From: Acetobacterium woodii
GTDB lineage: Bacteria > Bacillota > Clostridia > Eubacteriales > Eubacteriaceae
Direction of reading: 5' to 3'
Length of the DNA stretch: 64,000 bases
Assembly (NCBI GenBank): GCA_016213825.1
Contig: JACQZP010000021.1
Span: 269,109-333,108 of the forward strand
The first letter of the stretch is position 1; every line of letters starts with the position of its first letter. Below are positions 9,035-32,717 of the stretch, piece after piece. Made by a program: the position numbers and the translations under genes. Under the pieces are notes generated by a model. The model was given only the letters and a program-made list of their open reading frames with translations, was not told the DNA's origin and searched no databases.

Positions 9035-11308
9035 TTATTCATCTTCAATGATCATGTCAACAAAGATCTGTGCTATTTCTGGATCAAACTGTGTACCTGA
9101 ACAACGGTTGATCTCTTCGATGGCTTCTTCAACAGTAAGGTCATCCATATGTAATCTCATTTTTGTCATGGCATCATAAGCGTCTGCAATGGCTATGATC
9201 CGGGCTTCCAATGAGATTTCCTCACCTTTTAGCCCTTTCGGGTAACCACTTCCGTCCCAATGCTCGTGATGTTCCAAAATGTGATCCGCTATTTCAGCAA
9301 ATTCATTAGCCGAACTCAAAATCCGATAGCCGACCTCTGGATGTCGCCGTATTTCTTTCCATTCCAGCTCATCCAGCATTTCCGGCTTGTTGAGAATCCC
9401 ATCCGAAATACCGATCTTTCCAATATCATGCATCAGTCCGGCTGTTTTTAAATCTTGGGTATCTTTCGTATTCAAACCAAGTTTGTTAGCAACTTCTTCT
9501 GATAGTTTGCTGACCCTTTGAGAATGCCGCATTTCCCGGTGATTTTTTTCAAATAGCGTATTGATAACCATTCCGACCGTTTTATTGCGCATTCCCAGAC
9601 TTTCAGTCAGTTTGCGACGATACATATAGTCTTCAGCTTTTTTAAATACCTGCTGAATGTCTTCATCTTTTATATACTTTGTCTCAAAGCCAAAAGATAT
9701 GGAGACATCGACTGTTCCAACCTTTTCATTTTTGGCCAGTGTTTCAATCCGTTTGATGACTTCTTCAGTTTCTAACGAATCTGTTTTAGGCAGGAGAATC
9801 ACAAATTCATCGCCTCCCAATCTTGCGATAATATCATCGGCACGACAGGCTTTGGTAATAATTTCTGCTGATTTCTTTAGCAGTTCATCCCCCATTGCAT
9901 GACCAAAACTGTCATTCACCAGTTTTAGTCCGTTGACATCTCCCATTACCAGAGATAGTGGCAGGTTTCTAGGCGTATCCAATCGCATTAACTCTTCTTC
10001 ATAAAAGCGACGATTATAAAGACCGGTCAGCTGATCGTGATAGCTTAAAAAGGCAATTTGATCTAATTTTTGTTTTTTCTCGGTGAAATCACGAAACACC
10101 AGCACGACACCCAAAACTGCTCCATTTTCTTCCATAATTGGCGCTGCACTTTCTTCAATCGGTCGTTCAAACCCATCTCTTGATATCAATAACGTGCGAT
10201 TGGTCAGTTCTCGGATTTTTTTTGTCCTGATCACATCTTTGACAATATTTTCGAACTTTTCCCGGGTGAAAGTATCAATTACATTGAAAACCAATTCGAT
10301 GGGTTTATTTAACGCCTCTTTTTTGGTCCAGCCGGTCAAATTCTCTGCCACCCGATTAATAAATAAAACCCGCCCATCCTGATCGCAGGAGATCACACCA
10401 TCCCCAACTGAGATTAATGTCGTTTCCAATAACTTACTATCTTTTGCCAGTTGCGCTTCTAATTGGCGTTGTTCGGTCATATCAATGCCAATACCCGTAA
10501 AATATTTTTTTTCGTCAAGCGTCATGACGACGCCGTTTGAACGAATCAGCAGCTTTTCGCCATTTTTTTTAATTAAATTGGCTTCTACTTCGCCATATCC
10601 CGTTTTAAAAACCCGGTCAACCGCTGCCAAAACCCGAACGAGATCGTCCCCATCGTACCATTTATCCATGGTCATTTGGGCTAATTCGGCTGATGAATAA
10701 CCCGTCATTTCTTCGTGTTGTTTATTCCATTTAATCAGTTTTCCGGTTTCATCATAAACGTAAAGAAATCCAGGGATACTCTCAAACAAGGCTCTGACAA
10801 AAACCAGTTCCCGTTCCAGTTCTGCTTTTGCTGCGCTAAGTTGTTTGTTAAGAGCTTCCAGCTCATACGTGCGCTCTGCCACCCGTTTTTCCAAAAATAT
10901 ATTTTCTTTTCTGAGTGTCTGACTATCCATTTGATCGTCCGTAATATCCCTCACAATTGATAACAAATATGCCTTACCTGCCAGTGAAACGGGACTCGAG
11001 TTTACTTCGACCTCTCTGATTTCGCCATTTGACAACCGATGTTTAAAATAAAACTTATTTCTTCTGCTTTCTTTGGCACTTTCGACTTCTTGCTTGAGTA
11101 TTTCTTCATTTAGACAATTGAAATGACTAATTTTTTTTGTGACCATTTCATCATGTGTTAAACCATAAAACAAACAGGCCGAGTGATTGCAATCTTCGAT
11201 TTTTAATGAATCCGGATTGATCAGAAGCATGATTTCCTGATTGTGTCTAAATAGTTCTTCAAAAAAAGATTCTTTATTGTAACGCTGGTCGTTCTTCTGA
11301 ACATCCAT
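9035..11308 (-). CDS. PAS-PAS-PAS-GGDEF-HD-GYP protein, bifunctional c-di-GMP enzyme
   Basis: 757 residues. I place the start at 11308 because GGAGGTG sits just upstream; an in-frame ATG at 11326 would lie before that site. Domains: three PAS domains (about 15-130, 180-290, 295-415), a GGDEF domain (about 430-590) with an intact RLGGDEF active site and an RADD inhibitory site five residues before it, then HD-GYP (about 600-757) with MHDIGKIG, HPEVGYRIL and HHEHWDGSGYPKGL. It therefore keeps residues for both making c-di-GMP and degrading it. No membrane segment is evident, so PAS sensing is probably cytosolic. One of three c-di-GMP genes within 10 kb, and upstream of GEMM-I-controlled genes. 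Confidence 0.95.
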   Translation of the reverse strand: MDVQKNDQRYNKESFFEELFRHNQEIMLLINPDSLKIEDCNHSACLFYGLTHDEMVTKKISHFNCLNEEILKQEVESAKESRRNKFYFKHRLSNGEIREVEVNSSPVSLAGKAYLLSIVRDITDDQMDSQTLRKENIFLEKRVAERTYELEALNKQLSAAKAELERELVFVRALFESIPGFLYVYDETGKLIKWNKQHEEMTGYSSAELAQMTMDKWYDGDDLVRVLAAVDRVFKTGYGEVEANLIKKNGEKLLIRSNGVVMTLDEKKYFTGIGIDMTEQRQLEAQLAKDSKLLETTLISVGDGVISCDQDGRVLFINRVAENLTGWTKKEALNKPIELVFNVIDTFTREKFENIVKDVIRTKKIRELTNRTLLISRDGFERPIEESAAPIMEENGAVLGVVLVFRDFTEKKQKLDQIAFLSYHDQLTGLYNRRFYEEELMRLDTPRNLPLSLVMGDVNGLKLVNDSFGHAMGDELLKKSAEIITKACRADDIIARLGGDEFVILLPKTDSLETEEVIKRIETLAKNEKVGTVDVSISFGFETKYIKDEDIQQVFKKAEDYMYRRKLTESLGMRNKTVGMVINTLFEKNHREMRHSQRVSKLSEEVANKLGLNTKDTQDLKTAGLMHDIGKIGISDGILNKPEMLDELEWKEIRRHPEVGYRILSSANEFAEIADHILEHHEHWDGSGYPKGLKGEEISLEARIIAIADAYDAMTKMRLHMDDLTVEEAIEEINRCSGTQFDPEIAQIFVDMIIEDE

Positions 11309-11489
11309 TTTCTTCACCTCCATCAAATTCTGTTCAGTTGCTATTGACCTAAGTCCACTTTGTATTGTGCCAACATCTTTATGGTTGACTGAACTCAGTT
11401 TATTATTAAACTATCTACCCTTGAATCCGCCCTGCTAATCATTTGCAATTTATTTTTCGTTGCCAAAACACTATCTGGGGATCAAAAAA

Positions 11490-11634
11490 TAACGAACTTC
11501 GGTTGCTTTGGTGCAGTTTCCACAAACAATTTCGTAACGTGTAGGCGAACAGTTCAGCGAACTGTCCGCCGTACAGTGTAGAAATTGTTTCGTGCGAAAC
11601 TGGGCACAAAGCTCACGGCACTTTCGCAATTACT
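11490..11634. repeat. Palindromic dispersed element, copy A (full-length type)
   Basis: About 145 bases in the 375-base gap between two minus-strand genes. GTGCAGTTTCCACAAACAAT and its continuation pair with a downstream arm ending CGAAACTGGGCAC, with the centre GAACAGTTC AGC GAACTGTCC, so the element could fold into one long hairpin. The right end reads CTCACGGCACTTTCGCAATT. The same sequence recurs at 46.2 and 49.7 kb, with short relatives at 53.2 and 62.3 kb. It is flanked by imperfect 26-base direct repeats (11464-11489 and 11635-11660, 21 of 26 identical). The rest of the gap (11309-11463) shows nothing I can name. Confidence 0.8.
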
Positions 11635-11656
11635 CAAAACATTCTTTGATGATCAA

Positions 11657-11693
11657 AAAACAAAAGCACCAATCTGATGATCAGTGCTTTTGT
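11657..11693 (-). terminator. Terminator of the QueG-like/SPFH operon
   Basis: AAAAGCAC pairs with GTGCTTTT around a 14-base loop, immediately after the SPFH stop. On the minus strand it ends in TTTTGTTTTTT. Confidence 0.85.
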
Positions 11694-11700
11694 TAAGTAA

Positions 11701-12555
11701 TTATTTTTCAATTGGTAAAATTCCAGACATTTCACCGATTACATTAATCAGTTGGGCGTTTGATGGCACAACAATTTTGGCATTGTTTTTTAAGGCGATT
11801 TCGGTGGTCTGTAATTGCTTTAATAATTGGGCGTTTCCAACAAAATACTCTTCAGCCGCTTCATTAACTAATTTGATTGCAAACGCCTCGCCTTCTGCTT
11901 CAAGAATTCGAGCTTGTTTGATCCCCTCTGCTTTTTTGATTTCCGCCCGTTTTACCCCATCTGCTGTCGTTTCTGCTGCAGTGGCAAAATCGATTGCCGC
12001 AACTTTTTCATTTTCTGCTTTAACGACCTTGTTCATGGTTTCCTGAACATCCTGAGGTGGATCAATTTCTCTTAACTCAGCCCGAACAATATCGATGCCC
12101 CATTTGTCCGTTTCTTCTTTTAATGTTTTAAGCAAATCCGTATTAATAATACTTCGTTCACTGTTTGCCGATTTTAATGTCATTGTCCCGATGATATTAC
12201 GTAAGGTGGTCCGGGCAAGGTTGACAATCTGCACCTTATAATTATTGACGTTATAAACGGAGTTCTTGACACTCTCCTCGTCAGGTTTGACCTTAAAATA
12301 AATCTGAGCATCAACAGTTGCATTAAGATTATCATTGGTAATAATGACCTGCGGCTCAGCATTAAACATTTGCTCCGTGACATTTACAATATAAATTTTT
12401 TGCACCCCGATTATGATCCAGTGAAAACCAGGTTCTGCATACTTTGTGTACTTTCCGAATGTTTCAATTAGACCACGACTTGTTGGTCGAATAATCCGAA
12501 CCCCAGCCAGAAAAAAAGCTAACGCAAGAACGAGAATCAGAATAAATAAAATCAT
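11701..12555 (-). CDS. SPFH/Band 7 (stomatin/prohibitin-like) membrane protein
   Basis: 284 residues. One N-terminal hydrophobic segment (MILFILILVLALAFFLAGV) anchors a Band 7 domain (IRPTSRGLIETFGKYTKYAEPG, LREIDPPQDVQETMNKVVKA), followed by an alanine/glutamate-rich coiled region (about 165-240, EKVAAIDFATAAETTADG, RILEAEGEAFAIKLVNEAAE). This is the stomatin/QmcA layout; such proteins form oligomeric scaffolds in membrane microdomains. No NfeD-type partner is adjacent. It is the last gene of a three-gene operon, 15 bases after the unknown gene, with an AAGGAG site at the right spacing for the ATG at 12555. Confidence 0.9.
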   Translation of the reverse strand: MILFILILVLALAFFLAGVRIIRPTSRGLIETFGKYTKYAEPGFHWIIIGVQKIYIVNVTEQMFNAEPQVIITNDNLNATVDAQIYFKVKPDEESVKNSVYNVNNYKVQIVNLARTTLRNIIGTMTLKSANSERSIINTDLLKTLKEETDKWGIDIVRAELREIDPPQDVQETMNKVVKAENEKVAAIDFATAAETTADGVKRAEIKKAEGIKQARILEAEGEAFAIKLVNEAAEEYFVGNAQLLKQLQTTEIALKNNAKIVVPSNAQLINVIGEMSGILPIEK

Positions 12556-12570
12556 GTTTTTATACTCCTT

Positions 12571-13116
12571 CTAATAGTCCCCGAGAGGGAAATAATCACC
12601 AGTTTCGGACATGCCAACCGGATAGTGACATCGATTCAACCAGTTTGTACTACTAAGTTCCGGAATCGGTGGCAGATTGAGGCAATGTTTAAAGCCTTCT
12701 CGAACAATGTCAACAACCTCCTGATCAATATCCGTTGCCACCTCATCAAAGACTTCCCAGCCTTTTTCAGGTAGGTGCAGCAAAATAATCTGCGTCTTGT
12801 TTCCCAACGTATAGGTGTCCAAAACCTTAAAATGCGAACCTGAATCAATGACACAAAGCCCCCAGTGGGTATTGTGCTCATAGGCTTGCATATTGGCATA
12901 ATGATTGGACAAAATTGCCAAACGATGCGTCGTGACCATCCCTCCTCTTCGCAAACTGGCATCAGTAAAACCCAGTTCTTTTAAGATCATCCCAACTTTA
13001 TATTTTGATCCCAGATCGCCAAGATTGGTGTCTCGGATCAGCAGGGTAATGCCCGGATAGGTAAACTGCATTAGTTTTTCTAATTCTTCTGACTTTTTAA
13101 ACTTATCTGTTAACAT
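12571..13116 (-). CDS. Uncharacterised protein in the SPFH operon
   Basis: 181 residues from the ATG at 13116, which has GGAGT upstream. A longer frame back to 13218 overlaps the preceding gene and is rejected. I do not recognise the family. It looks soluble, with no signal peptide or membrane segment, and contains stretches such as ITLLIRDTNLGDLGSKYKVG, TTHRLAILSNHYANMQAYE and NTHWGLCVIDSGSHFKVLDT, which suggest a compact alpha/beta domain. It starts 4 bases after the QueG-like gene's stop, so it is very likely co-translated with it. Confidence 0.75.
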   Translation of the reverse strand: MLTDKFKKSEELEKLMQFTYPGITLLIRDTNLGDLGSKYKVGMILKELGFTDASLRRGGMVTTHRLAILSNHYANMQAYEHNTHWGLCVIDSGSHFKVLDTYTLGNKTQIILLHLPEKGWEVFDEVATDIDQEVVDIVREGFKHCLNLPPIPELSSTNWLNRCHYPVGMSETGDYFPLGDY

Positions 13117-13120
13117 TTTA

Positions 13121-13957
13121 TTACTCCATATTGCCTGGTATCCCACTCTCACAGGGTACGTTGACCTGGCACTTTCCACAACCATACCGGGGCTTGAATT
13201 TTTCTGCGGTTTTATCAAGAAAAATACTGCATAACCGGTGATCTTTTCCTTTTTGAAGAGAAATAGCTTTAACTGGACATTGTTTTACACAAGCACCACA
13301 CTTGGTACAATAAGCATTATATACTTCATACGGATGTTGATTTGATTCCAACTCAAGTTCAGTCACCAGACTTCCAAACCTTCCGGCAATTCCCTTTTCG
13401 GTGATCAGTCCTTTTGAAAGTCCAAAGGTACCCAATCCAGCGAGATAGGCAATATGCCGCTCCGACCAATTACTGGTAAACGCCAGTGGTTCTCCGCACA
13501 GTTCTTCGATCGGCTCCGTAATACTGAAAAACTTCTTATCCATGGAAGGAATCACAGTCTCGAAACCAGCCTGATTGATACTGCTTTGCAAATGAATCAA
13601 CAGACTTCGTAATAATTGATGGCCTTCAATTCGACCGACCAGCCATCCCCAGGAAGGCCATATTTTCTGCTCCCGGTTGCTGGCCTTTACCGCCTCAGAA
13701 AATGGCAGAAAAAAGGAAATCACTGTTTTTGCTGTTGGCAGCCATTCTTGGGGATTTCTGAAATGACAACCAATGACTTCCGGCTTTTTGAGGATTGCAA
13801 ATGTCTCATCACTGGCATCACAAAACCCAAAAATAGGACCATCATAGATTCTTTTTCCAACTAAATCTTTTGGTGTATTATTTTCCATCTTTATCTGATT
13901 AAATGATGATGTTTCGATAAAGTTTGATGCTACTTGTACGATATCGTTTTTGTCCAT
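13121..13957 (-). CDS. Epoxyqueuosine reductase (QueG)-like 4Fe-4S ferredoxin-domain protein
   Basis: 278 residues. The C-terminal third holds CTKCGACVKQCPVKAI (CX2CX2CX3CP, one 4Fe-4S cluster) and a second cysteine group (CSIFLDK, YGCGKCQVNVPC) for another cluster. The N-terminal part (about 60-200) resembles the cobalamin-binding region of QueG-like proteins (SNWSERHIAYLAGLGTFGLS). True QueG is usually longer and acts in tRNA queuosine synthesis; no queuosine genes are nearby, so this may be a diverged redox paralog, as is common in Clostridia. First gene of a three-gene operon with an unknown gene and an SPFH gene. Confidence 0.82.
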   Translation of the reverse strand: MDKNDIVQVASNFIETSSFNQIKMENNTPKDLVGKRIYDGPIFGFCDASDETFAILKKPEVIGCHFRNPQEWLPTAKTVISFFLPFSEAVKASNREQKIWPSWGWLVGRIEGHQLLRSLLIHLQSSINQAGFETVIPSMDKKFFSITEPIEELCGEPLAFTSNWSERHIAYLAGLGTFGLSKGLITEKGIAGRFGSLVTELELESNQHPYEVYNAYCTKCGACVKQCPVKAISLQKGKDHRLCSIFLDKTAEKFKPRYGCGKCQVNVPCESGIPGNME

Positions 13958-13993
13958 TTTAAGCCTCTCGATCAGATTTCACATTTTACTTTT

Positions 13994-14022
13994 ATTATAA
14001 ACCAATACTTCAACTTTGTAAA
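13994..14022 (-). promoter_or_regulatory. Sigma-A promoter of the QueG-like/SPFH operon
   Basis: On the minus strand TTTACA, a 17-base spacer and a perfect TATAAT, about 37 bases before the ATG at 13957. Confidence 0.65.
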
Positions 14023-14121
14023 TTTTTACTTGAAAACGAACACAGTAATTGGGTTTAAGTCCATAAAATAAGGTTTATTTCATAAATAGCATGTTGATTT
14101 TTAAATAATAGCTAAAAATAA

Positions 14122-16053
14122 CTATTTCAGTTCAAATCTGGATTTTGAGATCCGAGACTTATCCTTATACATCTGTTCATCCGCCTGTTGCATTAACAAC
14201 TCCATTGACAACTCAGAATCGATGGTAATCGTATAACCCACGGATAACCCAATTTTGCGATGATCGTCTAATATTTCCTCATTATAGCTGACAATTGACT
14301 GCTTTATACAATAAACAAATTGCTCCGCCATGGCTTCTTCACAGTCGTTAATAATAGCTAAAAATTCGTCCCCACCGATCCGCACGACGGTGTCTGCTTC
14401 TCTGAAACATGTACTTAAAAATCCTGCCACCTGCGTAATCAATTCATCCCCAGCCAGATGCCCATAGTGATCATTAACGTATTTCAGCCGGTCAATATCA
14501 AACATAAAGATACAAACGGGATGATCCGGTTGGGGGTTTAACGCCAACTGTTTCAAATAGGTTCGATTATATAAACCAGTGAGTTGATCATGATAAACCA
14601 GATAAAGAATTTCTTCCTCCGCTTGTTTTCGCTTTGTAATATCGATAAAGAAATTCAAAGTAGCCGGTTTACCTTGCCAGTCAATAATAATGGAGTTCAT
14701 CTCCAACCATCGAATATCCCCATCTTTTCTTAACATTTTAAATGTACTGGCCATTTTTGTTTCATCACCGCGCAGATATTGAAAATGGTTTTCTGAAAGA
14801 CGTTGTTGATCTTCTGGATGAATTATTTTTTCTAAGGGTAATGACAACAATTCTTCTTTTGAATAACCAGATAATTCCACCGTTTTTTGATTACAAAGCT
14901 GTGGTTTGCCATCTTGTATCACAACAATGGCTTCCACAGCGTTTTCAAAAAGCAGTCGGTATTGTTCCTCGCTGGTTCGTAAGGCTTTCTCTGAAGCCTT
15001 TCTGGCAAGAATGTCCTCTCGCAGATATTGACTCGTTATTTCTAATTCACTTTGACGCAACGCCAGTTGCTTATTTAGTTTCCCCAGTTGTCGAATATAC
15101 AGAAAGCTTAGCAGTATTACGACACCAAAGATTAAAACGATCCAGGCAATTAATTCATAATCGTAGGACTCAACCGTGATGGAGACATATTGATTGATAA
15201 TTTTTTGGACCTCCTGAGGAGTCAGGGTTGCAATCCCTTTATTCAAAATATCCCGAAGCATGGGTTGCGAATTAACAACGCCTAACCGAAAATTATTGGT
15301 ATAATTGGGCAAGTCCTCGACAATTTTCAGGTTAAAAAAGCCTTCCTGTTTAATGGTATAGGCAGCCATGGTCATGGATCTCAAAGTCATATCCGCCTGA
15401 CGATTTTCCACCATTTTTATAGCGTCTACCTCTGAATCCACCAGAATAATCCCAATATTCGGATATTCACGGCGAATGCGTTCTTCGGTGCTGGTTCCTT
15501 TTGGCAGCGCCATGGTTTCACCATACAGATCTGATAAATTCGCAATGAAAGGATGATCTTCCCGGGAAATAAGAACACTAGGATCAGTAAAATAGGTATT
15601 GGTAAATATAAGCCATCCTTCTCGTACAGGGGTATCATTTAAAAAGCTCAATACGACACATCCGCCGACTTGGGACTCATCCAGGCTTGCTTCCCAGTTG
15701 TCGGTCGGTACCAATTCCAGGGTTACGCCCGAACGCTCTGCAATTAAGTCAATGAGATCTGCAGCAATGCCTGAGTATTTTCCTGAAGCATCAATTTCTT
15801 CATAAGGTATCCAGTCCGGGTCAACACAGATTTTTACTGGACCTAACACATCAAGATATGCTTGTTCCTCAGGTGTGAGGTCCACCATTACTTTATTTTC
15901 AGCTGTTTGGGAGGCACCAATTTGATCCAATTGGACGGATTTGTTGTTCGCTGAACCTAAGCGCTCAATCACAAATATGGCAGCCAATAAGATTAGAACC
16001 AATACGATTAAAATGGTGTAGCGTTTTTTATTTTGATCTGCAGTTTGAACCAT
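14122..16053 (-). CDS. Membrane diguanylate cyclase with extracellular SBP domain and PAS domain
   Basis: 643 residues: membrane segment (about 12-32), exported periplasmic-binding-protein-like domain of the SBP_bac_3 type (about 65-290, VKICVDPDWIPYEEIDASGK), second membrane segment (about 300-320), PAS domain (about 360-475), GGDEF domain (about 480-643). The active site RIGGDEF is intact and an READ inhibitory site sits five residues before it, so product-inhibited c-di-GMP synthesis is likely. The binding domain suggests sensing of an external amino-acid-like solute, which is inference. It follows the GGDEF/EAL gene by 28 bases with its own GGAGG, so maker and breaker are probably co-transcribed. 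Confidence 0.94.
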   Translation of the reverse strand: MVQTADQNKKRYTILIVLVLILLAAIFVIERLGSANNKSVQLDQIGASQTAENKVMVDLTPEEQAYLDVLGPVKICVDPDWIPYEEIDASGKYSGIAADLIDLIAERSGVTLELVPTDNWEASLDESQVGGCVVLSFLNDTPVREGWLIFTNTYFTDPSVLISREDHPFIANLSDLYGETMALPKGTSTEERIRREYPNIGIILVDSEVDAIKMVENRQADMTLRSMTMAAYTIKQEGFFNLKIVEDLPNYTNNFRLGVVNSQPMLRDILNKGIATLTPQEVQKIINQYVSITVESYDYELIAWIVLIFGVVILLSFLYIRQLGKLNKQLALRQSELEITSQYLREDILARKASEKALRTSEEQYRLLFENAVEAIVVIQDGKPQLCNQKTVELSGYSKEELLSLPLEKIIHPEDQQRLSENHFQYLRGDETKMASTFKMLRKDGDIRWLEMNSIIIDWQGKPATLNFFIDITKRKQAEEEILYLVYHDQLTGLYNRTYLKQLALNPQPDHPVCIFMFDIDRLKYVNDHYGHLAGDELITQVAGFLSTCFREADTVVRIGGDEFLAIINDCEEAMAEQFVYCIKQSIVSYNEEILDDHRKIGLSVGYTITIDSELSMELLMQQADEQMYKDKSRISKSRFELK

Positions 16054-16081
16054 AAAGCCTCCATACCCCTAATATTACATG

Positions 16082-19000
16082 CTAAATCTGCTGTTTTAGT
16101 ATTTCCTCAATGGCGGTTGCATCAAGGGGTTTATAATAGTAATATCCCTGGATCAAATCGCATTGTGATGTTTTTAAAAAAGCGATCTGATCCTCGTCTT
16201 CAACCCCTTCAGCTACGATTGATAAGCCCAGACTTTTGCCCAGCTGAATTATGGCATTGGCGATCGCCTGATCCTTATGATTATGACCGATACCATCAAT
16301 AAACTGCTTGTCCATTTTCAGCCGATCCAATGGCAGCATTTTTAATCGACCCAGAGAAGAATATTCCGTTCCAAAATCATCGATTGCAATTGAAACGCCA
16401 ATTTGTTTTAACCCATTGAGTTTTTCAATAATTTCTTCAAACTCTAATATGGCTGTACTCTCGGTAATTTCCACTTCCAGATATTCCGGCTGAAGACCGG
16501 TTTTTTTCAGAATGCCTTCAACCTGACTGATAAACTGTGGATTTTTAAACTGGCTGGCTGAAATATTAACCGCCATAATAACGGGATCCATACCCATATT
16601 CTGCCAGGCCATACTTTGACGACAAGCGGTTTCCAGCACCCATTCTCCGATGGGGTTGATCAGGCTGGTCTGTTCCGCTAATGGGATAATCACCGCTGGT
16701 GAAATTAAACCCAATTCCGGATGCTGCCATCGTAGCAGGGATTCTACTCCAGTAACCTTTCCGTTGCTCAAGCATACCTGGGGTTGATAATTGACAAATA
16801 GCTCATTTTTTTCAAGCGCCCGATACAGTGCACTTGTCAGTTGATTCTGTCGGATCACTTCTCCTTTTATAGCTGCCGAGCATAATAGGTACTGATTTCG
16901 GCCTTTCTCTTTCGCCTTGAATTTTGCAATATCAGCATTCATAATCAGCTCTTCCGGATCTTTCCCATCAATGGGATAGATTGCGATCCCGGCACTGGCG
17001 GTCATAAAAAATTCCTGTCCTTTCAGAATAAAGGGTTCATAGAAAAGATTCATTAACTTTTCTGCAATCGAAATTATTTGGTCTTCGTCACTTACATGAT
17101 TGATCATCACTAAAAATTCGTCGCCACTGAAACGTGAAACCAGATCATTTTTGCTCAGAACACTTTTGATTTTTTCGCCCACCAGATAGAGTAATTCATC
17201 ACCCATACTATGACCGACCGTATCATTAACGGTTTTAAATGAATCCAGGTCAAGAAAAACAACACTCAGATGATTGTCCGAAAACTCCTGCTTGACAATG
17301 CTGAAATAAACGTAATTTGTAAACAGATTTCGGTTTGGTAGCTTGGTGACTTCGTCATAATGCGCGATGAAACTTAATTCTTTTTCTGCATCAATCCGTG
17401 TCAACGTATCCCCCAGAATATTGGCGATTATCTTGACGAAATTGAGGTGATCATCCTGCCATTCGATAATCTTAGTTTCGGTGTCAAATCCCCAAAATCC
17501 AATGACCTTATCTTTGCTTGTTATCGGTGCGATAATCTCAGATTTAAGTAAATTAATATCAAGATTAAATAATTCAGCATTAACAAATTCTGGAAGTTTG
17601 CTGACATCTGAAGCGACAAATAGTTCATTACCAAGGATTTTTTCCATCCGCCAGTGACCGGAATCAATCGGAATATTCTGAATCCGATCGATTCCGGATT
17701 CAATGCCTGGGCGACAATAATCTTTTAACCCTGAAAATGTTTTTTTCTCTCGGTCAAACAAGCAGATATAGGTTCGATCGACCGCAAAAAACTCGCAGCT
17801 TGTTTTTAATAAATAGTCGATGTTTTCATCAAAATTTTGCTGATTTATACCAACACAATCCGTCGAAATCTGAGTGATCAATTCTTGTAATTTCATTTTT
17901 TCAGAGGTTTCATTCAGCCTCAATAAAAAAAGTTTGTTTATATAATAGCACAGCCAAATCGCGATGCAAAAAAGACCGATTCGCACCGAATAGTCGACCC
18001 CGCTTACTTTAACATAGGTGATTGGCATTACCACCCAAATGATGATTTGAGTGATAATAATCGAAAGGGCCATGATTCCCAAAAGGATTTTTTCTCTAAA
18101 TACTAAAAAAGCAATAATCAGTACAAATGGAAATGCCCAAATTGTAACGCCCCCATATTCAGTGAACTTTAAAGTCACAATCGGAATCAGCAGCGCAAGT
18201 AAACACACACTGACTAAATCCTTATGGCGCTCGGTCAGATCCAGTCGTTGCACTAGCTGCAGGATAATCCCGAAACTAATCAGGACACCACTTAAAATCA
18301 AAACTTCTGTCAGCGTCGACTCCTTACTCATCAAATATTGAGTGATAAAATTAAGGATACCTCCTAAAATCAGAGCGATCGATAGGTAAACATAGACTTT
18401 TTTTATTGCGATCACATTAAGAATCGCCCCATCCGATTCCACTGACCGAGGAATAATGAGACCAAAATAGCTTTTGTTATAGAACATCATAAACATCGGC
18501 AAGGCCATGAATATCGGTGCCATCTGAGGTATGGTAATACCCAGATAGGTATTGCTGAGAATATCCGTTAAAGTTGCCAGCAGAAAAACTAAAAAATACG
18601 AACCAATAATCGTTAATGCTTGTTTTTTGATCATTAACTCATTTTTTTTAAGATTCCAACGCCAAACCAGTATCATACTGATCATTGAATAGGCAATATA
18701 ATAAATGCCATGGAAAACATCCCAACTTGTATTTTGAGCCACATTGATCCACCCCCATTGGGTATTAACCAGGGCATAAAGTGGCGGGGCCAGATTATTT
18801 GAAATTGAAAAAACGAAGATGACAATTGCAGCGGGTAAATAGATTATGAAATAAATCCACCATTGTTTCAGAATGTTTTTCTTTTCCGTAAATAGTAACG
18901 AAAAATGTAAAAGAATCGCAAAAAACGCTCCCCATCCAATAGCTGAAAAACGACGCCAGAACAAGCACGTTTGATAATCACTAGCTGAGATAGCAATAGT

Positions 19001-26978: not shown

Positions 26979-28760
26979 TTAGATTCTTTGAAGCGTTAAG
27001 CTATCGGCCACCATATTTCCATACATATTTCCGGCAAAGCTGCAGCCGGAATTATATCCTACGCCACTAATTTTACTGTTAGAAGCAACTGTCATTCCAT
27101 ATCCCTGGGTCTTCTTTGCCTGATCGTCGATAAATCTGCAATTTAAGAATTTCACATCTTTTATGTAACCAGTTGAATCCCAGGTATCGATTCGGATACC
27201 ATCCGCTGCTCCCGGCTGACTTTGGCTGTTGTTAGCGATCAGGGTATTATCAAAAGTGATTCTTTCGACCCCTTGCGATTGACCTGAGGTAACCAGTGAT
27301 ATTCCGCGGGATTTGTTTTTTGTGATGGTCATATTTTTAAACAAAGCATTGCAGACATCCTTTTCAAGTTCAACACCGTAAAGATTGTTATTAACAGTAT
27401 TATTGTCAAAAGTTAAATTGCTTGCTTTTACAAGTCGAATCCCCATATTGGAATTGTCGTTTATGCTGCTCCCACTAACCTCAACGCCCTGGATAATGCC
27501 GGTGATCCCCATTAGATCCAAACCTGATCCTTTATTCCCATAACACTGTGTATTCGTAATTTTAATGTTCTCGGAGGTTTGGTTGGCATCCGGTTCAATA
27601 TCGATACCCGCCTCCGGCAAAGTACCATTGGTATTTTTAAAAATACTATTGTTAATTGTTACTCTTTTTGCATCTGTAATGGACAACCCCTGACGGCGGT
27701 TATTATCGCAGACCACACTGTCAATGTTAATATCACTGACATAGGGGGAATCGCCCAGAAAAATACCGTCGCCCCAGCAATCGCTGATTGTCATATTGCT
27801 AATCTTAATGTTATTTGATCCTTGAATAACTTGAATACCCATTCCCCATTCACCAGAGGAACCCAAATGCCCATACCGCTCGCCAATGATCTTACCACCA
27901 ATAATGTTAACATTACTGACACCCGACATGCGAATAACTGCATTATAGCCATTTGAAGATGGCAGCGCTTTTAGCACCGCATTAGTGCTCAGTGTGACTG
28001 TCTGATTCGATTTGAGTAACAAAGGTTTATCGACATTAATCATGTATGTGCCATCTGGTATACATACCGTGGCATTTTCATTCAAGGCCGTTTGTATCGC
28101 TGTAGTATCATTGGTCACACCGTCACCTTTTGCACCGTAGTCTTTAACCGTTTTTCCTTGAGTAACTGGTGACGTTGACGTTGGCGGAGTAACCGTTGAA
28201 GCTGATTTTTTTTCAATCACAATTTCAATGGCTTCTAAACGCAAGCTTTTTCCTTCCGATCCAGCCAGTGCCCCGTCGACCACCCACCCCTGGGTCCAGC
28301 CTTCGTTTTGAATATGGGTCCGATATTTTACCGTATAGCCTGCTGCACTCGCTCCAGTTAATCTTATTTGAATCCCTTCCAACCGAAGACTTTGACCTTC
28401 TGATCCTGAAAAGCTACCATTAGAAGCCCATTTCTGTTCCCAGCCAATATTTTGAACATGAGTTCGATATTCGATTCCAAGATCTGCTGGCACATTACCA
28501 GTCAGTTTAATTTCGATCCCCTCTAAACGCAAGCTTTTTCCTTCCGATCCTGAAAGCGCACCATTGTTCATCCAGCCCTGGGCCCAACCTTCATTTTGAA
28601 TATGGGTTCGGTAGGTAACACCAACCGAATCGGTGGCGGTTGTTTCTAAATTTGCAGCGAAAACATTGTTCGAAAAAAATGCTAAAATCACTAAAAGGAT
28701 ACACGATATGCTTGTGCTAATACTCATTTTTTTCGCACTAAAAAAACTATTTCTATTCAT
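26979..28760 (-). CDS. Secreted ChW-repeat plus pectate-lyase-like parallel beta-helix protein
   Basis: 593 residues. Signal peptide (about 1-35, ending NNVFAA), three clostridial hydrophobic-W (ChW) repeats (about 47-86, 95-134, 144-184; each with YRTHxQNxGW, GSEG and SLRLE), a Thr/Ser/Pro linker, then a Pectate_lyase_3 type right-handed beta-helix (about 205-593) starting KTVKDYGAKGDGVTNDT. ChW repeats are linked to cell-surface association in Clostridia. The helix fold occurs in polysaccharide lyases, hydrolases and epimerases; the exact activity cannot be read here. It sits inside an EPS locus directly behind a c-di-GMP-I riboswitch, so c-di-GMP-controlled action on the secreted polymer is the likely role. 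About three-quarters similar over the helix to the product of 28999-30402. Confidence 0.9.
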   Translation of the reverse strand: MNRNSFFSAKKMSISTSISCILLVILAFFSNNVFAANLETTATDSVGVTYRTHIQNEGWAQGWMNNGALSGSEGKSLRLEGIEIKLTGNVPADLGIEYRTHVQNIGWEQKWASNGSFSGSEGQSLRLEGIQIRLTGASAAGYTVKYRTHIQNEGWTQGWVVDGALAGSEGKSLRLEAIEIVIEKKSASTVTPPTSTSPVTQGKTVKDYGAKGDGVTNDTTAIQTALNENATVCIPDGTYMINVDKPLLLKSNQTVTLSTNAVLKALPSSNGYNAVIRMSGVSNVNIIGGKIIGERYGHLGSSGEWGMGIQVIQGSNNIKISNMTISDCWGDGIFLGDSPYVSDINIDSVVCDNNRRQGLSITDAKRVTINNSIFKNTNGTLPEAGIDIEPDANQTSENIKITNTQCYGNKGSGLDLMGITGIIQGVEVSGSSINDNSNMGIRLVKASNLTFDNNTVNNNLYGVELEKDVCNALFKNMTITKNKSRGISLVTSGQSQGVERITFDNTLIANNSQSQPGAADGIRIDTWDSTGYIKDVKFLNCRFIDDQAKKTQGYGMTVASNSKISGVGYNSGCSFAGNMYGNMVADSLTLQRI

Positions 28761-28770
28761 CTAAAAAATT

Positions 28771-28853
28771 CCTTTCGGAAGCTGGCTGCCTTTCTTTTCA
28801 GTTAAGGTCCTTAGCTTTGCGTCCCAACCTTTCAGTTGGTTTGCCTTTATCGT
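28771..28853 (-). ncRNA. Cyclic-di-GMP-I (GEMM-I) riboswitch before the ChW/beta-helix gene
   Basis: On the minus strand the hallmark elements occur in order: AAAGGCAAACC, a GAAA tetraloop, GGGACGCAAAGC (receptor), a second stem, and AAGGCAGCCAGCTTCCG. The 3' edge, CCGAAAGGAA, supplies the ribosome binding site, 10 bases before the ATG at 28760, so ligand binding could gate translation. TTCC-GAAA-GGAA could also form a small hairpin hiding that site. Whether it is an ON or OFF switch cannot be told by eye. Confidence 0.92.
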
Positions 28854-28887
28854 AGAATTGGTTATCTCAAATCATATCATGTCTATA

Positions 28888-28915
28888 TTCATACTATTTC
28901 ATCAAATTATTTCAA
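28888..28915 (-). promoter_or_regulatory. Possible promoter ahead of the single GEMM-I leader
   Basis: On the minus strand TTGAAA, 16-base spacer, TATGAA, placing the RNA start about 25-30 bases before the aptamer. Weak -10. Confidence 0.35.
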
Positions 28916-28931
28916 TAAATCCTAACGATTT

Positions 28932-28969
28932 AAAAAGGATATTTAGAAAAACTAAATATCCTTTTTTTC
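28932..28969. terminator. Terminator between the two beta-helix genes
   Basis: AAAAAGGATATTTAG pairs perfectly with CTAAATATCCTTTTT around a 5-base loop, with T runs on both strands. It gives the two riboswitch-controlled genes separate transcripts. Confidence 0.9.
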
Positions 28970-28998
28970 AGTCAATTATTGAATTTGGGGATAAGTAT

Positions 28999-30402
28999 TT
29001 ATATTTTCTTAACAATGGCACTATCTCCAACGAGACCGCCGTTAATATTTCCAGAGAAAACACAACTTGAATCATATACAATTCCGCTTACTTTACTGTT
29101 AAAACCGACTGTCATCCCGTAACCTTGTGTCTTAGTTGCTTGATCATCAATAAATTTACAATTTAAGAATTTTACATCTTTGATATATCCGGTAGAATCC
29201 CATGCATCGATTCGGATACCATCTGCTCCACCAGGTTGACTTTGGCTATTATTTGAAAAAGTCGTATTTTCGAATACAATTTTTTCAACTCCCAGAGACT
29301 GTCCAGAAGTAACTAATGAGACGCCGCGTAATTTATTCTTTGATATGGTCATATTCTTGAATGACGCATTATAAACATCTTTCTCAATTTCAACGCCATA
29401 TAAATTGTTGGTAACGATATTATTATTGAATGTTAAATCACTGGTTTTAACAAGTCGAAGTCCCATACTGCCATTATCTTTTAAGGTACTATCAGTAAGA
29501 GAAACGCGTTGAATCGTTCCGGTGATTCCCATTAAATCCAAACCTGATCCGGCGTTGCCATAACACTGGGTATTGATGATTTGAATATCCTCAGATGTTT
29601 GATTTGCATCTGGTTCAATATCGATACCAGCTTGTGGCAAGGTGCCATTGGTGTTTTTAAAAATACTGTTTTTAATAATGACACGTTTAGCATCTGTAAT
29701 AGATAGGCCTTGACGTCGATTATTATCGCCAATTACATTATCTATGGTAACATCTGTTACTGCCGGTGAATCGCCTAAGAAGATGCCATCTCCCCAGCAA
29801 TCGCTGACGGTAATGTTACTGATTGTAATATTATTTGATCCCTGAATAACATGAATGCCCATTCCCCATTCACCAGAGGTTCCCTGGTGATTATTTCGTT
29901 CACCGACAATCTTGCCACCAGTAATAATAACATTGCTAACGCCAATCATTCGTACTACTGCGTTATACCCGTTAGCAGACGGCATTGCTTTTAATACTGC
30001 ATTTTGACTTAAGGTAATTGTCTGACTTGATTTTGGTTTCAACGTTTGATCTACATTAACTAAATAAGTACCATCCGGTATATAAACGGCTGAATTTTCG
30101 TTCAATGCTGTTTGAATAGCGGCTGTATCATTTGTTACGCCATCACCTTTAGCGCCATAGTCTTTAACACTCATCCCCTGTGCTGTCGGTGTTGGGGTGG
30201 TTGTTGTTGGCGTTGTTGTCGTCGGTGTTGTTGTCGTTGGCGTGGTTGTCGTTGGTGTGGTTGTCGTTGGCGTTGTTGTCGTTGGCGTGGTTGTCGTAGT
30301 TGGTGGTTTTGTTGTTACAACTCTCTTTTTTGTTGCCGCTTCAACTGGCATTGCACTAAATAATAAGATCAATGTAATCAATAAAACAGATAACTTTTTC
30401 AT
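28999..30402 (-). CDS. Secreted pectate-lyase-like parallel beta-helix protein with Thr/Pro linker
   Basis: 467 residues. Signal peptide (about 1-22, ending VEAA), a basic patch (TKKRVVTTK), a Thr/Pro linker of about 40 residues built from TTTTP units, then a Pectate_lyase_3 beta-helix (about 75-467) beginning SVKDYGAKGDGVTNDTAAIQ. The helix is closely related to that of 26979-28760, but ChW repeats are replaced by the linker, so the two paralogs probably differ in surface attachment or reach. Catalytic residues are not identifiable with confidence; it could be a lyase, hydrolase, epimerase or polymer-binding protein. Four tandem c-di-GMP-I aptamers precede it, and the ribosome site AAAGGA overlaps the last one. 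Own terminator at 28932-28969. Confidence 0.9.
   Translation of the reverse strand: MKKLSVLLITLILLFSAMPVEAATKKRVVTTKPPTTTTTPTTTTPTTTTPTTTTPTTTTPTTTTPTTTTPTPTAQGMSVKDYGAKGDGVTNDTAAIQTALNENSAVYIPDGTYLVNVDQTLKPKSSQTITLSQNAVLKAMPSANGYNAVVRMIGVSNVIITGGKIVGERNNHQGTSGEWGMGIHVIQGSNNITISNITVSDCWGDGIFLGDSPAVTDVTIDNVIGDNNRRQGLSITDAKRVIIKNSIFKNTNGTLPQAGIDIEPDANQTSEDIQIINTQCYGNAGSGLDLMGITGTIQRVSLTDSTLKDNGSMGLRLVKTSDLTFNNNIVTNNLYGVEIEKDVYNASFKNMTISKNKLRGVSLVTSGQSLGVEKIVFENTTFSNNSQSQPGGADGIRIDAWDSTGYIKDVKFLNCKFIDDQATKTQGYGMTVGFNSKVSGIVYDSSCVFSGNINGGLVGDSAIVKKI
30190..30303 (-). repeat. In-frame 15-base tandem repeats encoding the TTTTP linker
   Basis: About seven imperfect copies of a 15-base unit (plus strand GTTGTCGTTGGCGTG and variants), each encoding five residues (Pro-Thr-Thr-Thr-Thr). 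Because the unit is a multiple of three, slippage would lengthen or shorten the linker without a frameshift. Plus-strand open frames here (VVVVG repeats) are shadows. Confidence 0.85.
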
Positions 30403-30412
30403 GGTGGTAATT

Positions 30413-30495
30413 CCTTTCGGTAGCCGGCTGCCTTTCTTTTCAGGTTAAGGCCCTTAGCTTTGCGTCCCACTCTTTCGAATGGTTTGCCTTTTTCG
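30413..30495 (-). ncRNA. Cyclic-di-GMP-I riboswitch, tandem unit 1 (gene-proximal)
   Basis: Minus strand: AAAGGCAAACCATTCGAAAG, GTGGGACGCAAAGC, long second stem, AAAGGCAGCCGGCTACCG. Its longer second stem closely matches the single aptamer at 28771-28853 and differs from units 2-4. The 3' edge runs into AAAGGAATTACCACCATG, so the Shine-Dalgarno sequence of the beta-helix gene overlaps the aptamer edge. Confidence 0.93.
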
Positions 30496-30527
30496 TTGAA
30501 TTATGAATATGCAAGACAAAAAACTTC

Positions 30528-30604
30528 TCTTTCGGTAACTGGCTGCCATATTTTAGGCCCTTTAGTTTTGCGTCCCTATCTTTCAACAGGTTTGCCTTTT
30601 TCGC
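30528..30604 (-). ncRNA. Cyclic-di-GMP-I riboswitch, tandem unit 2
   Basis: Minus strand: AAAGGCAAACCTGTTGAAAG, GGGACGCAAAACTAAAGGGCC, ATGGCAGCCAGTTACCG. Short second stem as in units 3 and 4. The core has AAAACT where units 1 and 3 have AAAGCT, so ligand affinity may differ. Confidence 0.9.
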
Positions 30605-30659
30605 TGAAAAGCTGATCCCAACGTTTAAATAATTCAATCTTGTTTTGAGTTTTAGTCAT
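30576..30659 (-). CDS. Possible 27-residue leader ORF between aptamers 3 and 2
   Basis: ATG at 30659 directly follows GGAAGGA at the 3' edge of aptamer 3. The reading frame begins MTKTQNKIELFKRWDQLF and stops at 30576 inside the 5' half of aptamer 2. No homolog recognised. If translated, ribosomes would invade the next aptamer and stop it folding. It could be chance or a remnant of a duplicated gene start. Confidence 0.3.
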   Translation of the reverse strand: MTKTQNKIELFKRWDQLFSEKGKPVER

Positions 30660-30664
30660 TCCTT

Positions 30665-30740
30665 CCTTTCAGTAACTGGCTGCCATTTTACAGGCCCTTT
30701 AGCTTTGCGTCCCTGTCTTTCAACAGGTTTGCCTTTTTTG
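30665..30740 (-). ncRNA. Cyclic-di-GMP-I riboswitch, tandem unit 3
   Basis: Minus strand: AAAGGCAAACCTGTTGAAAG, CAGGGACGCAAAGC, AATGGCAGCCAGTTACTG. It is nearly identical to unit 4 in the first half, indicating recent duplication, and ends in GAAAGGAAGGA, a strong Shine-Dalgarno-like sequence. Confidence 0.92.
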
Positions 30741-30764
30741 CATCAAAGAGATAACTCTGAACAT
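30720..30764 (-). CDS. Possible 14-residue leader ORF between aptamers 4 and 3
   Basis: ATG at 30764 lies about 7 bases after AAAGGAAAG at the 3' edge of aptamer 4. It encodes MFRVISLMQKRQTC and stops inside the 5' part of aptamer 3. Same arrangement as the ORF at 30576-30659. Weak as a gene; listed because the architecture repeats. Confidence 0.2.
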   Translation of the reverse strand: MFRVISLMQKRQTC

Positions 30765-30774
30765 AAAAAACTTT

Positions 30775-30850
30775 CCTTTCGGTAACTGGCTACCATTTTA
30801 CAGGCCCTCTAGTTTTGCGTCCCTATCTTTCAACAGGTTTGCCTTTATCG
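30775..30850 (-). ncRNA. Cyclic-di-GMP-I riboswitch, tandem unit 4 (promoter-proximal)
   Basis: Minus strand: AAAGGCAAACCTGTTGAAAG, AGGGACGCAAAACTAGAGGGCC, AATGGTAGCCAGTTACCG. It has GGTAGCC where the others have GGCAGCC. First aptamer to be transcribed, about 25 bases after the predicted start. Confidence 0.9.
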
Positions 30851-30884
30851 TTGGAAAGCAATTCCACGATTTTAATTTTTCATA

Positions 30885-30914
30885 ATCATATTAATGTTAA
30901 AACCCTTTATTCAA
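30885..30914 (-). promoter_or_regulatory. Probable promoter of the four-aptamer leader
   Basis: On the minus strand TTGAAT, 18-base spacer, TATGAT, placing the RNA start near 30877, just before aptamer 4, so all four aptamers would lie on one leader of about 475 bases. The remainder up to 31053 is very AT-rich, with no other feature seen. Confidence 0.5.
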
Positions 30915-31053
30915 TAATTATTTAATAGATTATTGATTTAAGATTTATATCACATTATTAGTATATTAGATTACAGTATTTATGAATTGAATATAACACA
31001 TTTCCAAATATTAGTCAATACTTAATTCTGGTAATTTTTACATAATAATGATG

Positions 31054-32589
31054 TCATTTAAGAACTTTTATTACTTTGTCCAATAACTCCCTTTTACCCA
31101 CTTGAACTAAATGAATGAAGTCATTATTTTTTCTATAAATAATAAAAAATATTAAATTCGGAATGATCGCACAAATTACCAATTTTATCCCAAAATTCAC
31201 AATCCCTGCGCCAACGATGAATGAACAAATCAGCCAGGTAAAACCACCCGCGATGATTGTGATAAAAACATATTTAAAATATATTTTAAAGTACTCAATT
31301 GAACTGGTTTTGAATCCATATTTATATAACACAAAGGGTTCAACCCAAAAACTTGTCGTTATTGTGCTGATCATCGTTCCGATAAAAATTCCGATAACAC
31401 CCCAATAATTTGCCAATATAACGGAAGCAATAATATTAATAATTGATTCCGCCAGTGGTTTATAACGATCATACCAATACAACCCGTGAGCATCCTTAAA
31501 TACGCGAACGCTTGATCGCATCCCTGTCATATAAAAGTTAATAATCAAAACAGCAACGATTTGCATATTAAAAAGGTATTCACTGCCTAGCCAAATTTCA
31601 ATAAACGGATTCACCAGATTCCACAAAGCGATGGACGAAAATCCAAAAATCCAAAAAGCCGCAAAATTTGTGACATAGAAGACATTCTTGTTTTTTTCTT
31701 CTGTTTGGGTTATGCCAAGGTTTCCCACACTGGCTGTGAGCGATTCGAATATTAATCCATAAATCAGCATCAGTGCTGAAATAATCAGCAAGTAGTTCGA
31801 ATAGATTCCAACTGCCACCAGTCCAATCAGCATGGATATTAGTAAATTATCGGTACCCAGAACCACCACCCCGCCAATTCGATGGTAAATTAGTGCCTGA
31901 ACATTTTTTTTGATCAGTTCTTTCTCATTTGTTTCGAGCGGGAGAATATTTTTTTCTTTTAAATACGGGTACATTTTATCTGCTTTTATGGAAACCAGAA
32001 GATTTTCCAAAAATGTCGCGATCAGTTCAACAGATAAAAACAAAATATAGTTTTGGGTTGTGATCAAAATAATAATTTGGCAAATGCTCATCGCGATAAA
32101 AATTGAATAACGGTAAAGGGATGCAATGTATTTTTTTTCATTGGCAATAATAAGAAACCGTTTATATGAATAAAAATATGATATTGAAGAATTTATTACA
32201 AACATTAAAAAGATGATGCTAATATAGTCCACATTCGGCATGTCTTTTATAAAATAATGCAAAAATGGCGTAATCATTACTCCTAAAACCGTTATCAATA
32301 AACCAATAATCGTATACGTTTTTTTAAACAAATGCATTAATGATTTTATTTTTTCGACATCATTTTCAGCTATCGGTTTATACATGCTATAGACAATGGC
32401 GGTACCAATACCCATTTCCGCCAAAGATAAGATGGATAATATATTTGTAAAGAGTCCATTGATTCCCAAATATTCGGCGCTTAATACATTAACAAATATC
32501 ATCCTGGAAACAAAGGTAATAACCAGTGCCAACATTTGACCGATCAAAGCGTATTTTATGTTTTTAATCGAATTCTCTGTTCTTGACAT
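31054..32589 (-). CDS. Wzx-like oligosaccharide flippase
   Basis: 511 residues with about 12-14 hydrophobic helices along its length and no soluble domain, as in the polysaccharide transporter branch of the MOP superfamily (N-terminus IKNIKYALIGQMLALVITFV, then YLGINGLFTNILSILSLAEMG). It would flip the lipid-linked repeat unit for extracellular polymerisation. It is the last gene of the upstream EPS module, after the GT2 gene, with GTGAGG before the ATG. Confidence 0.92.
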   Translation of the reverse strand: MSRTENSIKNIKYALIGQMLALVITFVSRMIFVNVLSAEYLGINGLFTNILSILSLAEMGIGTAIVYSMYKPIAENDVEKIKSLMHLFKKTYTIIGLLITVLGVMITPFLHYFIKDMPNVDYISIIFLMFVINSSISYFYSYKRFLIIANEKKYIASLYRYSIFIAMSICQIIILITTQNYILFLSVELIATFLENLLVSIKADKMYPYLKEKNILPLETNEKELIKKNVQALIYHRIGGVVVLGTDNLLISMLIGLVAVGIYSNYLLIISALMLIYGLIFESLTASVGNLGITQTEEKNKNVFYVTNFAAFWIFGFSSIALWNLVNPFIEIWLGSEYLFNMQIVAVLIINFYMTGMRSSVRVFKDAHGLYWYDRYKPLAESIINIIASVILANYWGVIGIFIGTMISTITTSFWVEPFVLYKYGFKTSSIEYFKIYFKYVFITIIAGGFTWLICSFIVGAGIVNFGIKLVICAIIPNLIFFIIYRKNNDFIHLVQVGKRELLDKVIKVLK

Positions 32590-32717
32590 AACCTCACCAT
32601 TTCCATTTAAGACATTTCGTTATTAATTTATTTAAAGTGCCATTATTCATAACTCACCAATTGAGCCTTTTTTCGTTTATGCTTTGTTCGGTAATCAGAT
32701 CAATGATTCAATTACTT

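Follow-up and report, generated by a model that had tools for sequence, protein, structure and literature searches.

A 64-kb stretch of Acetobacterium DNA (hereafter the window, meaning the whole stretch analysed) contains a leader in which four c-di-GMP-I aptamers stand ahead of one gene for a secreted protein, raising the question of what four copies of the same sensor could do on a single message.

Four class-I aptamers on one leader

The initial annotation had claimed four complete class-I aptamers on this leader, its strand unnamed, and a covariance search finding at least four units above threshold had been named beforehand as the test. A cmscan search of the whole window gave four head-to-tail matches to RF03167 (c-di-GMP-I-GGC) on the minus strand, from 30852 to 30415, all above the gathering score of 59 bits (E 9.1e-13 to 2.6e-14). 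The letters refer to unit types discussed below.

30777–30852, minus strand: aptamer unit 1 (type B), RF03167, 63.9 bits
30667–30742, minus strand: aptamer unit 2 (provisionally type A), without clear output, RF03167, 68.2 bits
30530–30605, minus strand: aptamer unit 3 (type B), RF03167, 65.6 bits
30415–30497, minus strand: aptamer unit 4 (type C), RF03167, 69.3 bits

All four units also pass RF01051 in a whole-genome search (67.7–75.6 bits against a cut-off of 35), and the claim is thus borne out with both models. The unit starts are spaced 110, 137 and 108 bases apart along the array. Across the genome the search counted 13 class-I units, with five inside the window, and a permissive scan of 28400–32600 listed no fifth unit beside the array. 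G and C occupy both ligand-contact positions (20 and 92, which we take to be the numbering of the G20 and C92 named in the literature) in four of four units. Judged by their sequences, the four units are complete c-di-GMP-I aptamers and would be expected to bind c-di-GMP.

The array ends 12 nt before the ATG (30402) of a gene for a beta-helix protein, and the next gene, a paralog with ChW and beta-helix matches, has an aptamer of its own.

28999–30402, minus strand: gene presumed to be regulated, 467-aa beta-helix protein with a T/P-rich linker (Pfam Beta_helix and Pect-lyase_RHGA_epim)
28774–28855, minus strand: single aptamer ahead of the paralogous gene 26979–28760, RF01051, 72.1 bits

The beta-helix gene lies in a polysaccharide cluster, with a CpsB/CapC-type gene, a Polysacc_synt_2 gene and a glycosyltransferase nearby, and a flippase-like gene in the same stretch falls just below its Pfam cut-off. 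A low-complexity run on the minus strand (30190–30310) encodes the T/P-rich linker, with TTTTP repeats, near the start of the protein. Matches to GGDEF number 65 in this genome (63 over the cut-off); three are found in the window, at about 9605–17365 on the minus strand.

Transcription start

The array had also been described as lying between one promoter and one start codon, with a transcription start inside the array named as what would speak against it. Both minus-strand promoter-like sites nearest to the array lie upstream of unit 1, which fits that description: a weaker one at 30914–30885, and the following.

30990–31018, minus strand: promoter-like site TTGACT-17-TATATT with TG before the -10 (extended -10), from a consensus scan and recurrence in relatives

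On the minus strand, none of the 14 sites given by the consensus scan, which is distinct from start-site mapping, falls inside the array; on the opposite (plus) strand one does, at 30604–30633. The total is not above chance (shuffled mean 10.7, sd 3.0), so the promoter-like site draws its weight from relatives, in which it recurs: 12 of 14 leaders have a TTGAC-17 box with TG no more than 260 nt ahead of their first scored unit, a count made without a shuffled control, and the remaining two (L067 and L068) have one farther upstream. Transcription is therefore likely to start once, upstream of the entire array.

Closing helices of units 1 and 3

The layout around the closing helix (P1) of units 1 and 3 is unusual: a predicted upstream hairpin, an extended P1 and a U tract follow one another.

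30847–30870, minus strand: upstream hairpin of unit 1 (anti-P1), which takes the P1 5' strand; -9.0 kcal/mol, z about -4.4
30771–30781, minus strand: 3' strand of the extended P1 of unit 1, ending at the U tract; covarying helix, from the alignment
30765–30770, minus strand: U6 directly after P1 of unit 1, a putative terminator tail by its sequence
30602–30623, minus strand: upstream hairpin of unit 3 (anti-P1), unlike that of unit 1 in sequence; -7.8 kcal/mol, z -2.5
30524–30534, minus strand: 3' strand of the extended P1 of unit 3, from the alignment
30518–30523, minus strand: U6 directly after P1 of unit 3, a putative terminator tail by its sequence

Eighteen units with a U tract, from 14 genomes, have a P1 lengthened by six pairs that ends at the U tract. 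In this set 96.5% of cells are paired, and changes on both sides occur at four of eight pairs. None of 500 shuffles scored as high, and versions of the helix slid along the alignment reached 29–66%; because the 18 units were chosen by their U tract and are related sequences of a single genus, the shuffles overstate this support. In the U-tract class, swapping P1 strands between units weakens the pairing: 26 of 5000 permutations did as well as the cognate strands, identical strand pairs being counted once. The same permutation went against cognate pairing in a small third class of four units (5000 of 5000).

Folding predicts an upstream hairpin for each of the 18 U-tract units, and in 17 of them z is -1.9 or lower. 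Its sequence differs in window unit 3 and in the second units of L056 and L058, where another pairing hides the same P1 5' strand. As one fixed helix the hairpin covaries weakly: 82.1% of cells are paired, and 114 of 500 shuffles match the number of doubly changed pairs. The hairpin and P1 states are mutually exclusive, and the hairpin is ahead in 18 of 18 units by 0.3–6.3 kcal/mol (mean 4.2) in a comparison of folding energies that covers neither tertiary contacts, ligand nor kinetics. By unit, its lead is 3.8 kcal/mol in unit 1, 2.6 in unit 3 and 0.6 in unit 4. Since the hairpin state is favoured by folding energy, ligand would be needed for P1 to form, and the lead would fit a switch that is open without ligand. 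The hairpin, strand-permutation and energy comparisons exclude terminator-type units; the latter two also exclude L013, L027, L028, L035 and L037, and the energy comparison the last units of L064 and L068, whose register is shifted.

The P1 stem, six pairs and an internal loop, is weak as a terminator, and its large loop is beyond what the terminator scan scores. The free minimum that RNAfold gives for units 1 and 3 is neither the clean hairpin state nor the clean P1 state. The single aptamer at 28855–28774 has a U6 between its Shine-Dalgarno sequence and the ATG, so the U tract might derive from a ribosome-binding site.

Unit 4 and unit types

Unit 4 is arranged differently, with the 3' strand of its P1 lying close to the start codon.

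30408–30420, minus strand: P1 3' strand of unit 4 with the Shine-Dalgarno-like AAAGGA; by sequence it can pair with 30503–30498 (duplex -4.0 kcal/mol)

This arrangement hints that P1 of unit 4 could cover the Shine-Dalgarno sequence. In the Shine-Dalgarno class, made up of last units, cognate strands pair no better than swapped ones (1346 of 5000) and covariation gives no support, so that the case for a translational block comes from position and pairing in the window itself. Unit 4 has no convincing upstream hairpin (z 1.1).

A run of at least five T within 20 nt after P1 follows 13 of 13 penultimate units and none of 13 last units; earlier units have one in 4 of 11 cases. Adding two leaders that were read by eye brings the penultimate and last counts to 15/15 and 0/15. 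Sequence identities, taken with L055 excluded, place unit 1 nearest to the penultimate units of relatives (92% to L066) and unit 3 nearest to unit 1 and the penultimate units (82–83%), while unit 4 most resembles last units (up to 82%). For unit 2 the nearest is the single unit of L069 (79%), followed by the first units of triples (75–78%), which lead only slightly over others at 75%. The unit order thus appears to be B-A-B-C, an assignment that is fair overall and weak in part. In a pseudo-cooperative tandem riboswitch every complete unit would carry an expression platform of its own; here candidate platforms are seen for units 1 and 3 (P1-U6) and for unit 4 (Shine-Dalgarno sequence), and none for unit 2. 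Read as a bi-mechanism array, in which one unit acts on transcription and another on translation with the same ligand, it would have a transcriptional side backed by comparison and a weak translational side.

One to four units in the genus

RF03167 is matched in all 19 Acetobacterium genomes with E of 0.001 or lower, and over the cut-off in at least 16 of them. Since the 20 regions of relatives were picked from the best matches listed, counts for the genus are lower bounds. Among leaders of the window type, four units are found in the window and in L055 (genome G009), three in L056, L057, L058, L060, L061, L062 and L064, and two in L065, L066, L067, L068, L072 and the second leader of L058. 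Pattern-based extraction dropped identical units and missed others, among them the last unit of L066 and, in the second L058 doublet, the first; those were read by eye. The beta-helix protein of the window matches proteins at 11 of 13 other loci with 30–98% identity (L055, L057, L058, L060, L061, L062, L065–L068 and L072). Some of these matches are short, and low-complexity filtering was switched off for the comparison; L056 and L064 end at most about 220 bases past the array.

These relatives bear on the possibility that the copies are redundant, with only the last one or two units regulating and the rest being leftovers of repeated duplication on their way to decay. Decayed first units are indeed seen upstream of the doublets L065–L068 (local scores 82–146, shuffle maxima 39–43), the first units of L057, L058, L060, L061 and L064 carry G20A and other changes, unit 3 of L055 has A at position 20, and unit 2 of the window has no clear output. 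No decayed extra unit was found upstream in L072, and the gap between units 1 and 2 of L056 shows no sign of one (score 32). The window array itself argues against decay: four of four units exceed the cut-off with G and C at the ligand contacts, and the P1 changes in units 1 and 3 preserve pairing. Four units are also kept in two genomes with 96–99% identity per unit, although such closeness also implies that there has been little time for decay. Redundancy is rated as unlikely, while retaining real weight.

A proposed two-level array

The analysis shows the four units and a promoter-like site ahead of them and, by comparison and folding, an extended P1 in units 1 and 3 together with its competing hairpin. 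From these, a four-unit OFF array acting at the levels of both transcription and translation is proposed, for which the chances are judged about even. Without ligand, the hairpin upstream of units 1 and 3 would hold the P1 5' strand, and RNA polymerase would read on. With c-di-GMP bound, this strand would be drawn into the extended P1, whose 3' end is immediately followed by six U; the extended P1 would itself be the terminator stem, and transcription would end. Transcripts passing both gates would reach unit 4, where a ligand-stabilised P1 would take the Shine-Dalgarno sequence and lower translation of the beta-helix gene. Unit 2, a complete aptamer with an intact consensus and no recognisable output, does not fit this scheme, which counts against it.

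The opposite direction, in which c-di-GMP raises expression, P1 is no terminator and other alternative folds matter, is considered improbable, more so than redundancy. Secreted matrix-type genes are often expected to go up with c-di-GMP, which would favour it. Left to fold freely, the U tract also finds other partners, such as the P3 strand of unit 1. The tandem class-I system of Bacillus thuringiensis is likewise described as ON in the available excerpt (PMC4759541). However, the terminator scan listed no ordinary terminator between units on the minus strand within the array, so P1 would have no such hairpin to exclude, and a ligand-stabilised P1 would stand directly before the U tract of units 1 and 3 and, in unit 4, would take in the Shine-Dalgarno sequence. 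That the ATGs also present after units 1 and 2 open short upstream frames coupling translation to the array is very hard to credit: each of the two units has a purine-rich stretch as well as the ATG after it, and a 27-codon frame follows unit 2, but that frame is interrupted by a TGA in L055, the matching ATG is absent from the other relatives compared, and upstream frames were rejected as a functional element for want of conservation.

For the proposed OFF array, the effect of unit number was estimated with a product model of independent, equal OFF units. Half-points of 1, 0.41, 0.26 and 0.19 K were obtained for one to four units, with 90-to-10% ranges of 81-, 40-, 32- and 29-fold. Because the drop in half-point is large and the narrowing modest, such an array would gain more in sensitivity than in steepness and would be neither broadened nor strongly digital. 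It had been suggested that several aptamers could sharpen or broaden the response; under this model a modest sharpening (81- to 29-fold) survives, broadening does not, and the main effect is the lower half-point (0.19 K against 1 K). That suggestion named no mechanism; the units fall into different types of candidate platform.

Other arrays and known systems

Comparison with published systems relies on excerpts of the papers cited. A survey of tandem riboswitches gives 347 doublets and 12 triplets of c-di-GMP-I, with quadruplets (16) given for glycine (PMC9481103); those tandems likewise repeat one class and ligand, but the excerpt gives no c-di-GMP-I quadruplet, whereas four units are present here. 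A 2025 study covers triples of this class (PMC12452182). The array had been put forward as a quadruple with no known description. In this respect no c-di-GMP quadruple was found among the matches listed in excerpted open-licence literature, but the array is not alone, as L055 has the same one and L059 and L075 have others.

L059 (genome G017; 1312–1853, minus strand) has four c-di-GMP-I units, all over the cut-off, and is a second kind of quadruple in the genus. Read by eye, every unit has an ordinary stem and a U run after it, unlike the window layout, and the quadruple precedes an ORF that reads like a subtilisin-type protease. Leaders related to it have three units (L063, L070) or two (L071, L073). 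L075 (3936–4416, plus strand), from an uncultured Clostridia MAG, has four tightly packed c-di-GMP-I cores; three units pass the gathering score, and the fourth (57.5 bits) appears only in a permissive run, in which the second is unlisted. L075 came from a search for spaced cores at one spacing, which gave five stretches (L075–L079): L075 is a true array, L079 belongs to Acetobacterium, and nothing in L076, L077 or L078 reaches the c-di-GMP-I gathering score. Pattern searches found quadruples in 2 of 40 genomes (this one and G009), 1 of 67 (G017) and 1 of 391 (this one), and three hits among 398 genomes all proved to be triples; these counts are lower bounds because exact cores and a fixed spacing were required. 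L084, L085 and L086 are triples from other lineages. In L085 (1470–1847) and L086 (1457–1844), units 1 and 2 are each followed by a terminator-like stem and unit 3 by sequence complementary to the Shine-Dalgarno region, as seen by eye; this suggests transcription first and translation last, possibly another two-level array.

In the excerpts, the nearest relatives of the proposed scheme each share part of it. The Bc3-5 triple of B. thuringiensis also has complete class-I units in tandem on one leader ahead of cell-surface genes, but it has three units, a terminator after each and an ON response (PMC4759541), whereas the window has four units, no ordinary terminators, a P1-U6 layout and a proposed OFF response. 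Cd1 is a class-I transcriptional OFF switch in which ligand favours the terminator, as proposed here; it is a single unit with switching strands downstream, whereas the competing strand here lies upstream of the aptamer (PMC9262584). The SAM-II/SAM-V tandem senses one ligand at transcription and then translation, as proposed here, but with two aptamer classes instead of four copies of one (PMC9481103). Bi-mechanism pairs are listed there for SAM classes, and its authors state that they did not check every tandem for this.

The array is a c-di-GMP-I tandem larger than those described, with an unusual platform layout. Four such units on one leader, now seen in three kinds of example, exceed the previous maximum of three. 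A further reading is tentative, somewhat short of an even chance: an OFF device in which four sensors of one aptamer class act at two levels, with the closing helix as terminator stem and its competitor upstream, in a layout that would be genus-wide with a varying number of units. The novelty of this layout is judged against the excerpted papers. If the platform reading is true, copies of one aptamer class would control a single message twice, at transcription and afterwards at translation. Within the genus, related genes are preceded by anything from one to four units, so natural leaders can be used to test how sensor number affects the dose response and to trace the gain and decay of units.

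Ligand contacts in the relatives

A c-AMP-GMP variant (GEMM-Ib) or mixed ligand specificity was considered for the window array and rejected, as A20 occurs in none of its four units. Across the loci read, A20 is found in 10 of 55 units that are not of the terminator type. Because it occurs mostly in first units, several of them degenerate, drift is a simpler reading than mixed specificity. The letter at position 92 is unreliable for L027, L028, L035 and L037, which are one base longer. In L058 (8654–8772, minus strand), the first unit of the triple has A and U at the ligand contacts (G20A/C92U), while the neighbouring units have C92; according to the excerpt available, a G20A/C92U mutant pair can bind c-di-AMP (PMC7288161).
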